From the NCBI GenBank assembly GCA_000310025.1, contig FN649758.1, forward strand, positions 109,715 to 173,714: a DNA stretch of 64,000 bases, in the 5' to 3' direction. Shown in pieces: positions 58,978-63,607 of the stretch (position 1 is its first letter; every line of letters starts with the position of its first letter). A model generated the notes under the pieces. The model had not been told where the DNA came from and made no database searches. It worked only from the letters and a program-made list of their open reading frames with translations. The stretch comes from Ectocarpus siliculosus (taxonomy: Eukaryota > Sar > Phaeophyceae > Ectocarpales > Ectocarpaceae). The position numbers and the translations under genes were made by a program.

Positions 58978-58979
58978 TA

Positions 58980-59004
58980 CCGTAGGTTGCATAAGATATC
59001 ACAC
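58980..59004 (+). repeat. Left terminal inverted repeat
   Basis: 25 bases pairing with 63337-63361, with a single T/C mismatch at position 20. It is followed by 'cacacccc' subterminal motifs to about 59180. Confidence 0.9.
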
Positions 59005-59222
59005 TTTCATTAGATACCACACCCCCTCAGAAAACGTACACAATACCACACCCGTGTGCTATTTTTTTCAGCCCCCCAAAAAACGTCATTTTATCACACG
59101 GTGACATAAGATACCACACCCCCTGAAGTTGGGAGGCATTAAATCGACGGAGCCCCTGCTTATCACACGGTGTGACAACGTGAGGACAGAGATCACGACC
59201 ACACCACCTGCTCGCAAGAGCC

Positions 59223-62200
59223 ATGGAGGCGGACAATGTCGTGGAGGGTGGTGCAGTTAGCAACCCTGCTGAAAGCCCCGCGGCTCAGACTGCAGTGGGT
59301 AAGACTCCAGCGGCGGCCCCACGCTCCATAGCGTCCTTCTTTCCACCCGCCCCGGGGGAACGTGGGGCTGCTCGGACGACTCCCTCAGCAGCCGCACATG
59401 ACACCGCACGTACTGCTGAGGCCCGCTCAATAGAATCTACTGCTACTGAGACTCCCACAGCACCGGCTGCGCCTGCCACCGCGGGTGCCGCTGAAACCTG
59501 CGAAGCAGAACCTACTGCTGAGAATCCCGCAGCACCCACACCTACACCCGAAAAGGCAGCTCTCCCGCCAACCACCAACACCCTGAGCGCGGCTACTGCT
59601 GAGAACCCTGCAGCAGCACCGCGCTGCGGAGAACCATCGTGCACCAACAAGCCCTTGTGGGCAGAGCCAGGGAAGGATATGCCGGAGTTTTGCGGCAGGC
59701 ATGCGAAGTCTGGGGACGTCTACATCAAAATAAGGTGTGCGCAGAGCGTCTTGCAGTTTGCAGCACATGGGTGTTTGTGAGGATTCTCATGGCTCAAGCA
59801 AACCAAAGAACATGCCACGCCTGATTGCCTGATCGATAACCAGATCGAAAAAATAATGTGATTTTGACGTCGTGTCGTCGCGCTCGCCTCACTGTACATT
59901 GGCATGTACACACTACATTTACATGTAGTTCATATATTGTGGTGTGGGCGAAATGTTTACTGGATTATTTTTTTCACACACACGACACGTTTCCGCATAC
60001 CGTTTTTTGTGTTTGTGATGTTTCGGTAGGAAGACTGCGAAACCCGTACCCAACACGTGCAAATATGTAAACATAACCTCGACAGCAGTTCGTGCCTGTT
60101 TGTGTGAGATACGAAATAGGTGCCGTCAGCTGGTCACCCTCTGTACCTTGCAAGCGTGGACGACATGACTCTCAACCTGGTGGCCGTTGTCAGAGCTATC
60201 CGCTAGCCATCGTATTTTTGGTACGTTTGCCTGATGGTCGTTGGAGCGAGCGCATTGTTACAGATACTGCACTTAACGACACGTATGCTACATGTTGTGT
60301 TGCTTCCTCGAACTCATGCGCTTTTCAGGAACGTGCACCTGCCTGAAGCACCGACGACAGCAGCCGCAGCGGCGCCCGTCGGCGACGCCATGTTTCCTGG
60401 AGAGTCAGAGGAGTGGACAGATGGTTTCGGTGGGCGTCTCGACGGCACGCCGGCCGAGGGCAAGGGCAAGGGAAAGAGGAAAAGAGAGCCGCTGGAATTG
60501 GAGCCACCAAACTTCCCCATTAAGTTTGGTGGTGGCCAGAAACGCAAGCGGTACGATTTGGAATTCAAAGTAAACGCCATTAAGTACGCGACCATGCAAG
60601 CCCGGGGGCGCAGGGGCCTAATGGAACCATCGGTGTGTCGTATGCGCAACGAGTGCTTGGGATTCCCGAGAAGATCATACTCTCTGCGTGGACAAAAGAC
60701 AGAACAAAGTACGAGAAGCAGCTGTAACAGGCAGACCAGCTCGGGGCCAAACGCAAGAAGAAAGCCCGGAGCGTGAAGTCGTTCAGAACGGGGAGGGTTA
60801 GGTCAAACGCTGAGGCCGAGCTCGAACTTCTCGACTGGATCAACGATGTTCGTTCGGAAGCCACCTCTGCCCGCGTCTCTACAAGGATGATCAAGAACAA
60901 GGTGGTATCGCTCAACTCGCTTTGGTTCGGCCCGAGGCCTGCAGCGAACGACCTGGGGGGCAGTAGAAAGTACCGCAACAAGCAGACTCACTGGTGCAGG
61001 AGGTTCCTTAGGAAGAACCGGTTGTCATTCCGGGCGGTTACCAGGCAAGGCCAGAAACTCCCTTCCGGGTGGCCTGCGATTGCCATGAAAGCCGTCAAGG
61101 AATGGAGGGCGCTTCGTCACGGAGGAATCGACGGTGGGGGAGGACGGAGCATGGGGGGGGCAACGAGCAATGCGCCTTCGAAGCCACCTCTGTTGTTCAA
61201 GGAGGAGCAGAGCTACAGCATGGATGAAACTGCTGTGTGGATGGAGCCCGCTGGCACGTCGACCGTGACGGTGAGTTCAATAGTGTTGCTTCGAGTCATG
61301 TGCCTGTCTGGTCGTTTCTTGGCATTCCGTGCAAACAGTGGGCATTGTGATGCAATATTTCTTGCCGTACGTACTCAGTGTCCAGCCAGTAAGGCTAGAC
61401 GACGTTGGTATTGCGCTTATGCCGGGTTAGAAGTTTCTTACCATTCGCATCCCATCATCGCTGTACTGCAAAACCCATACGTTGCTTTGTGCGTGAAGAG
61501 CTGTCATTCTCATCTACAAAATCGACTTTTTTCGTCGCCTCTGCTTTCTCTATTGCTTATTGCTTTTTATTTTTGTCGTTCGCAGCACACCGGTCAGAAA
61601 GAGGTGGCCATCAAAACCGGTGGAAAGGAAAAGTTGCGGATCACTGCCGTGCTTGCAGCAAACATGAAGGGCGGCAAACTCCCGGCGCTGCTCATCTTCA
61701 AGGGTAAGCCTACGGCGCCGGGCAAAAACCCCGCTGCCAACAGCATCGAACGAGAGTTCAAGGTGGGCAAGGACAAGAAGGGGATAGTATACCCTCAGAG
61801 CGTTGTGTACGCCGTGGACGACAAGGCGTGGCACACGCAGCGCGTCTTCAGGGATGTTTGGCTCCCCCAAGTGTGGAACCGGCGCCCGGGTCGCGAGGGG
61901 GTCCTGGGCAACTACCGTCAGCCGGACACGCTGCTATCGTGGGACGATTACACCGTGCACAAGACATCCCTGTGCAAGGAAGCGATGGACAAGTCCAACA
62001 CGAAGCTGTTTTTTGTCCCCGGAGGCCTAACGCCCAAGATCCAGCCTTGCGATGGACTTATCAACAAGCTGTTCAAGTCCAACATGTCCAGGCTCTACGA
62101 TGACCACATGGCCTCCACCGACGCCGTGCGCAACGACCGCGGCTACCCGGATCCCCCATCGAGGGGATTGCTCGCGCAGTGGGTGAAGAAAGCGTGGGAT

Positions 62201-62525
62201 GAAGTGGACCCTGAGAGCATCCGTTCGAGCTGGAGGAAGGCTGGCATGACCCTTGCCTTCGATGGATCTGAGGACGAGGCGTGGGCCAACAAGGAGCTCA
62301 AAAAAATCCGACGCCCAAGGGAAACCACTTCGTGCAGACGGCGACGCGGCCGATGCCGGCGTGGAGGAGGCTGGCCCATCGGAGGAGGGGGAGACGATGG
62401 CCGACTTGTTGGAGGTGTTGGAAATCGACGACGATGACAGCTCGGGAGATGGCGAAGGCAACGATGACTCGGAGGTTGAGGTCATGGCAGACTTGCCGGG
62501 GGCGGACGTTATTTGCATAGACTGA
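59223..62525 (+). pseudogene. pogo-like DDD transposase with N-terminal EsV-1-7 zinc motif, three lesions
   Basis: Exons: 59223-59734, 60329-61270, 61586-62525, with GT-AG introns of 594 and 315 bases and agreeing phases; about 797 residues if unbroken. Exon 1 is an Ala/Pro/Thr-rich tail region with a PIP-like box (SIASFF, residues 35-40) and one C-X4-C-X16-C-X2-H motif (Cys135, Cys140, Cys157, His160), the exact EsV-1-7 spacing. Exon 2 has a basic, NLS-like start, a CENP-B/Psq-type helix-turn-helix ([15 protein letters not shown]) and a second DNA-binding region ([17 protein letters not shown]). Catalytic Asp: SMDETAVW (61223), [10 protein letters not shown] (61943) and [10 protein letters not shown] (62051), a DD35D layout. 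The C-terminus is acidic. Lesions: a frame change in the G runs at 60604-60616, TAA at 60725-60727, and a frame change in A7 at 62300-62306. Host-derived or sequencing errors cannot be excluded for the homopolymer sites. Confidence 0.85.
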
Positions 62526-62959
62526 GGTGTCTTGTCTGGTATCTACCTACCGTAGTTGCATGCCATGGTCAAGTCAACCAAAGCTGCTATTCGAGCCAAT
62601 TTGTCCTGGGTTTCATATGTTTCGGTAGTCGCTTGTCCTCATGGTTTCTAGCTTTGGTTGATATGTAGCTGGCACTTGCTTGCGTCCTATGTGGTTCCAG
62701 CTTGAGTGGTGAACGCAAGTCTTGCAAGTGGTTGCGTCGTCCAGGTGCCTGTGTGCTGTCGTTTTGTCGCACACAACACCGGCACAACCGCTATGAGGTA
62801 TCGGTTCTACGTCTTCGTTGTGTACCTATGCGAAGAATATCCAAAGGATACTGCGAAGATGCACGTGGGAAAGCATGTACGTGATGGAGTGGTGTGAGCC
62901 ATCCTAGCTATCACACCTGTTTTACACCCCTTGACGCCCTTTGTACGTGGGTGCCTCCT

Positions 62960-63340
62960 GTAAGCGCACCGCATCACTCGAGCGACATTATTATCACACC
63001 CCCGTAGGTAGGGTCTTGTGGGCGCACTGCAACCACACGGGCGACATTATCACCCCCCCGTCAGGCCGGGTCCTGTGAGCGAGTATCACCACACGGGCGA
63101 AGTTATCACACCCCCTTGTTTTCACACCCCCTGTAAGCCGGGTCCTGTGAGCGCGCTTCATCACACGGGCGACGGTATCACACTCCCTTGTTATCACACC
63201 CCCTTGTTATCACACCCCCTGTTGGTGAGACTCTGTGAGTACACTTTATCACACGGGTGACATAAGATATCACACCCCCTACAGAATACCACACCCGTGT
63301 GATAACTTTCGTCCTCCCGAAAATGTTATCACACGGGTGT
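62960..63340 (-). repeat. Right subterminal repeats of the pogo-like element
   Basis: Several ~65-70-base units containing 'gggtcctgtgagcg', 'cacacgggcgac' and 'ttatcacaccccc'. 'gtgacataagatatcacacc' near 63257 echoes the left subterminal region near 59101. Such arrays commonly serve as transposase binding sites. Confidence 0.8.
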
Positions 63341-63361
63341 GGTATCTTATGCAACCTACGG
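63337..63361 (-). repeat. Right terminal inverted repeat
   Basis: Ends in 'gcaacctacgg' and is followed by TA. It is the complement of 58980-59004. Confidence 0.9.
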
Positions 63362-63363
63362 TA

Positions 63364-63550
63364 TACGCGCCTGCAAAACAAATCAACGTGTGTACAAACC
63401 ACGTGGAGTGCTCGAGAACCCCATTTCCGGGCAGTGCGGGTGCCTGGCGAGCGGAGTGGGATTACAGCAGTATCATCGGCAAAGGCAAACTATAATTATA
63501 AATATTACCCTTTATACAGGCACTCACCCGGCGTGGATGTCTCTCTCTGA

Positions 63551-63607
<57 letters not shown>

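Follow-up and report, generated by a model that had tools for sequence, protein, structure and literature searches.

Early development in the brown alga Ectocarpus is controlled by IMMEDIATE UPRIGHT (IMM), a member of the EsV-1-7/IMMEDIATE UPRIGHT family. The IMM protein is called one of unknown function in a passage of PMC7457493. A fusion between an EsV-1-7 domain and a transposase was published in 2025 for the transposon TcMar-2_Ec32, and the passages of that paper bearing on it place the domain at the N-terminus of the transposase (PMC12477816). Among the pogo transposons, Fot-like elements have been listed in stramenopiles (PMC7386202). Here, we analyzed a stretch of 64,000 nucleotides from Ectocarpus siliculosus (assembly GCA_000310025.1, contig FN649758.1, positions 109,715 to 173,714 of the forward strand), hereafter the window, which contains a TcMar-2-like transposon with an EsV-1-7 motif in the first exon of its transposase gene. 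The fusion is real but already known; what is new is a sister family of elements with a similar first exon that lacks the motif. This sister family is not discussed in the main-text passages of PMC12477816, supplements aside.

The features of the element, in window coordinates, are as follows.

58978 to 63363, plus strand: entire TcMar-2-like DNA transposon of pogo type, with a length of 4386 bp including the TA at both ends, bounded by a pair of terminal inverted repeats (TIRs)
58978 to 59004, plus strand: left TIR, beginning with TA, from the inverted-repeat search
59223 to 59734, plus strand: exon 1, with an Ala/Pro/Thr-rich N-terminus, an IASFF stretch and the EsV-1-7 motif at its 3' end
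59625 to 59726, plus strand: EsV-1-7 cysteine-rich motif (PF19114; C135, C140, C157, H160), residues 135-168, from Pfam
59735 to 60328, plus strand: intron 1, phase 2, GT-AG, predicted from frames and conservation
60329 to 61270, plus strand: exon 2, with the DNA-binding part (weak HTH_Tnp_Tc5) and the first catalytic Asp; frameshifted and stopped in the window copy
61271 to 61585: intron 2
61586 to 62525, plus strand: exon 3, with the DDE_1 core (D-X35-D) and an acidic tail; tail frame shifted in the window copy
62903 to 63334, plus strand: subterminal direct repeats near the right end, with cores such as TATCACACCCCCT
63337 to 63363, minus strand: right TIR, ending with TA, from the inverted-repeat search

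Exon 1 of the window copy matches the EsV_1_7_cys profile (PF19114) at 35.6 bits (cut-off 25, E 8.3e-9), well above background. The spacing C-X4-C-X16-C-X2-H (CGEPSC...PEFCGRH) is exact, as the first-pass annotation of this DNA had read it at Cys135, Cys140, Cys157 and His160. There is a single motif in exon 1, and the exact pattern occurs nowhere else in the six frames of the 64-kb window. The exon starts with an ATG at 59223 and encodes 170 residues plus two bases; its coordinates and its in-phase junction with exon 2 at 59734/60329 (donor GT at 59735-59736, acceptor AG at 60327-60328) agree with that annotation, as does its location between the element's own TIRs, which are 27 nt long and 96% complementary. 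Downstream, the DDE_1 domain is strong (69.6 bits), and the first catalytic Asp, placed by eye, lies in the SMDETAVW sequence of exon 2. The window copy itself is broken in exon 2, where the spliced frame ends after 319 residues.

A DNA search of the genome (G000, 189 Mb, in which the window is C33:109715-173714) returned 98 pieces from the 40 scored of 209 candidates, a lower bound. At least 19 near-complete copies, including that of the window, were found, some of them in two pieces. A TA precedes the left end in 19/19 copies and follows the right end in 17/19, so that 17/19 are flanked by TA on both sides; the right-end exceptions are L017, which has GT, and L031, for which no matched right TIR was found. 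All 19 contain exon-1 sequence (partly inverted in L030, and with a broken frame in several), which bears out the first-pass view of this exon as part of the element. Thirteen of the 19 have the strict motif in full, namely the window copy and 12 of the 18 others, including L028, which carries an insert and was excluded from the alignment of 18 copies. In that alignment, the GT and AG of intron 1 are kept in 18/18 copies. The spliced frame is open over 796 amino acids in three of the 18 (L016, L025, and L029), and two more have frames of 778 and 786 amino acids. The single open 796-amino acid frame of L016 holds both EsV_1_7_cys (32.9 bits) and DDE_1 (68.2 bits).

It could be argued that exon 1 is a separate gene lying inside the element and not spliced to the transposase, since the exon 1-exon 2 junction is a prediction from DNA sequence and a Met that could start a protein of its own lies about 20 residues into exon 2. 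We consider this very improbable: the junction is in phase and GT-AG, three copies have open frames across it, the sister family described below has a homologous first exon with an intron at the matching place, and the EsV-1-7 domain is called N-terminal on the transposase in a passage of PMC12477816.

The window element is probably TcMar-2 or its ortholog, because 217-bp elements with the same TIRs occur in the genome. A 25-base TIR pattern (at most two mismatches) was found 202 times in forward and 193 times in reverse orientation, with none in the control. TIR pairs exactly 217 bp apart were present, among the places listed, at C6:245787-246003, C12:3622765-3622981, and C18:4050027-4050243, and the C6 element was confirmed by reading its sequence. 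According to passages of PMC12477816, TcMar-2_Ec32 of Ectocarpus sp. 7 is likewise a Tc1-Mariner element of 4.4 kb with an N-terminal EsV-1-7 domain on its transposase, and it also has a 217-bp miniature inverted-repeat transposable element (MITE) as a partner, TcMar-N1_Ec32. No difference from the window element was seen in these passages; both the comparison and the identification go by size, domain, and MITE rather than by an alignment to the published consensus.

Deletion derivatives of the element (L039-L046) stop inside or before the motif. Five of them (L039, L040, L041, L043, and L044) share near-identical breakpoints (element position 676-691, then 3667), which suggests that they form one non-autonomous subfamily retaining the first half of the EsV-1-7 motif.

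The sister family comprises seven loci (on C43, C6, C1, C76, C75, C10, and C23; copies L002-L008), with exon 3 at 66-73% amino acid identity. Their left ends begin with TACCGTA, and two of the seven also have an identified right end that matches; their ends and subterminal repeats are related to those of TcMar-2. The sister first exon reads METPNN...ITSFF... (METSNN in L007) and is followed by an intron at the place matching TcMar-2 intron 1, in phase 2 as read from the frames. Over the first 60 residues, the L002 exon aligned to that of the window with a score of 66, reached by 1 of 2000 shuffled sequences (mean 36.4, standard deviation 6.2). The EsV-1-7 motif is absent from the sister first exon in 7/7 copies: six have no Cys and L007 has one (the first exon of L008 was counted as a 104-residue part). 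A Pfam scan of the L002 first exon gave no match.

A PxxIxSFF stretch (window 59319-59342, residues 33-40) is common to the first exons of TcMar-2 and of the sister copies L002-L008, with a gap in L007 and the variant IASYF in L016, while the N-terminus is otherwise loose. It resembles the consensus of the PCNA-binding PIP box, minus the first Gln. Where TcMar-2 has the EsV-1-7 motif, the sister exon ends (L002-L007) in VVDMVDEEP or a similar sequence, which resembles a SUMO-interacting motif. A looser version of the EsV-1-7 pattern (X14-18) matched the sense strand of intron 1 in sister copies L006 and L008 and, in the majority of TcMar-2 copies, a stretch on the antisense strand; three such hits were scanned, and Pfam gave no EsV-1-7 match for any of them.

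The comparison favors a gain of the motif on the TcMar-2 branch, after the split from the sister family and before the recent burst of copies, because the sister family is without it, no match to it was obtained in the more distant relatives L011 and L012, and the diverged fragment L001 has it. In L001 (C43, from about position 269741), the motif carries Cys140 to Arg, is 70% identical to that of the window and scores 22.2 bits, just below the cut-off of 25; its presence in a diverged copy makes the motif older than the burst. The same fragment lends something to the view that these brown-algal pogo elements had the motif ancestrally and that the sister family lost it. Given the near absence of Cys from all seven sister first exons and the lack of a match in L011 and L012, whose first exons were not delimited, we regard that history as unlikely. 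The broken relatives L009, L010, and L013 have no recognisable first exon and do not help to polarize the change.

With high confidence, we interpret the element as a TcMar-2-like pogo transposon with a spliced EsV-1-7 exon, the motif having most likely been gained after the sister split, probably from a host gene, and presumably serving as an accessory module. The transposase would thus consist of a flexible N-terminal exon ending in one EsV-1-7 zinc-type motif, spliced to a DNA-binding part and a DD35D core. From the anatomy of the element and what is known of its family, the core is expected to cut at the TIRs and reinsert at TA, and the 217-bp MITEs would be moved in trans by the same TcMar-2 transposase. 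The motif, which presumably binds zinc, may serve in the choice of partner or target site; it is unlikely to bind the terminal repeats, since the sister elements, whose ends and subterminal repeats are related to these, do without it. More tentatively, the TcMar-2 ancestor may have gained a host EsV-1-7 motif by exon shuffling, appended to an N-terminal exon that was already there, with the motif steering the transposase to host EsV-1-7 partners or chromatin sites, a proposal that we hold possible but rather doubtful. Were it true, the element and its sister would constitute a natural with/without test of the role of the EsV-1-7 domain. In any case, the TcMar-2 transposase and a sister with a homologous, motif-less first exon make an assayable pair for transposition and target choice.

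Several observations weigh against this interpretation or parts of it. Two one-base gaps within the motif are common to five copies (L018, L019, L021, L024, and L026), so an element whose motif and frame no longer worked seems to have multiplied, presumably mobilized in trans. L025 has His160Arg in the motif, yet has one of the three open 796-amino acid frames. The ratio of nonsynonymous to synonymous polymorphism (pN/pS) is 0.26 in the motif versus 0.97 in the remaining exon 1, a difference that involves a handful of changes and is too thin for claiming selection. Modeling the 50 residues of the motif region with AlphaFold from single-sequence input was uninformative, with a predicted local distance difference test (pLDDT) score of 50. 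Concerning the CENP-B/DDD part announced by the first-pass annotation, the catalytic half holds, while the CENP-B-type half is weak: HTH_Tnp_Tc5 reaches 15.3-15.5 bits in the window copy and L016, for a cut-off of 22.2. The splice between exons 1 and 2 is itself predicted from frames and conservation. Over the whole first exon, the similarity between L002 and the window is weaker, with 35 of 2000 shuffles scoring as high. The gain is unproven: the sister family may instead have lost the motif, and the lack of a match in L011 and L012 comes with first exons that were not delimited.

As for the source of the motif, a first look with PF19114 gave 880 candidates in the genome, of which 150 were scored, all above the cut-off, as would be expected of a brown alga. 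Among the matches listed, and leaving out copies and derivatives of the transposable element, no host motif exceeds 52% identity to that of the transposon, and nine host motifs chosen for comparison show 35-45%, so the transposon did not acquire its motif recently from one of the host genes listed. A host EsV-1-7 gene is the probable source. Derivation from a giant virus rather than from a host gene is, in our judgment, quite unlikely: scans of IMG/VR, one using the DDE region and another an 11-row alignment of the motif, retrieved no relative, bearing in mind that the pattern search is weak and that 35 residues cannot settle the matter. A sequence search of the PDB turned up no solved relative (best E 0.6).

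The first-pass annotation had proposed that such a fusion would point to one route for the expansion of the EsV-1-7 family in brown algae, by capture of a host domain or by spread through transposition. Capture is favored by the motif-less sister first exon. We compared the positions of the elements with 54 host EsV-1-7 positions, rounded, taken from listings in which 150 of 880 and 150 of 391 candidates had been scored. Within 25 kb of these lay 3/116 transposable element sites, against about 1.35 expected in sum: 1/19 full copies, 1/14 derivatives and 1/8 sister-type sites (0.22, 0.16, and 0.09 expected), and 0/75 further TIR sites (0.88 expected). The TIR sites were drawn from about 100 listed of 395, less those belonging to full copies, derivatives, and second ends of MITEs; one site that was kept, at C94:115 kb, in fact belongs to L028 as its left end. 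The eight sister-type sites correspond to L013 and the seven copies of the sister family. The three close cases are a mild excess, obtained with a threshold chosen afterwards and incomplete lists, and on these partial lists no clear association of host EsV-1-7 genes with element ends appears.

That the transposon spread the motif and seeded the expansion of the host family is therefore not supported, because none of the 75 further TIR sites is near a listed host motif and derivatives L039-L046 stop inside or before the motif. In favor of such a spread are the 3/41 elements and derivatives that have a listed host motif no more than 25 kb away (about 0.47 expected), and a derivative at C30:3211 kb located between two EsV-1-7 clusters. 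Five long host EsV-1-7 frames (L032-L036) have 6 to 23 motifs each by Pfam, where the element has one; a Pfam scan found no transposase domain in any of the five, and the low identity between transposon and host motifs points the same way. We find a spread of this kind scarcely credible, and the fusion does not explain the expansion of the EsV-1-7 family.

The right flank of the window copy (63362-63560) is 100% identical over 199 bases to G000:C93:102834-103032, and on the left side the flank of this copy and that of the copy on C93 differ (17/52 bases alike). This points to recombination between copies or to an assembly join inside the element, and the TA at the two ends of the window copy may stem from separate insertions, because only the right flank is shared. 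Elsewhere, L038 (G000:C4:3980500-3984500, minus strand) has a 694-amino acid frame that is DDE_1 transposase-like (56 bits) and has, at its N-terminus, a weak match to a C2H2 zinc finger (19-20 bits, below the cut-off). In this genome it is a further case of a zinc-type module on a transposase related to that of the element.

Pogo elements of the Tc1/mariner group are recognized by a DDE_1 domain with a DDxD spacing of 29-59, by a DNA-binding domain of the HTH_Tnp_Tc5 or CENP-B type, and by TIRs with a TA target site; the window element has D-X35-D, a below-cut-off HTH_Tnp_Tc5 score, a 27-nt TIR and, in 17/19 copies, TA on both sides. By its DDE_1 domain, D-X35-D, TIRs, and TA, and not by a transposase tree, it is assigned to pogo. 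Like the DD35D families of this group, Passer and Fot/Fot-like (PMC7386202), it has a TA target, a DDE_1 domain with D-X35-D, and a candidate HTH_Tnp_Tc5-like region; it differs from them by the added EsV-1-7 motif and by the below-cut-off score of the latter region, and its TIRs of 27 nt are shorter than the 40-60 bp of most Fot/Fot-like elements (PMC7386202). Compared with the EsV-1-7/IMMEDIATE UPRIGHT family (PF19114), it shares C-X4-C-X16-C-X2-H above the Pfam cut-off, but has one motif (6 to 23 in the host frames read), fused to a transposase, and no GMV after the His. The combination of a pogo transposase with an added N-terminal module is also found in POGZ and POGK, vertebrate pogo-derived genes with an added ZNF or KRAB (PMC7386202); those, however, are domesticated host genes, whereas the window element is mobile and multicopy.
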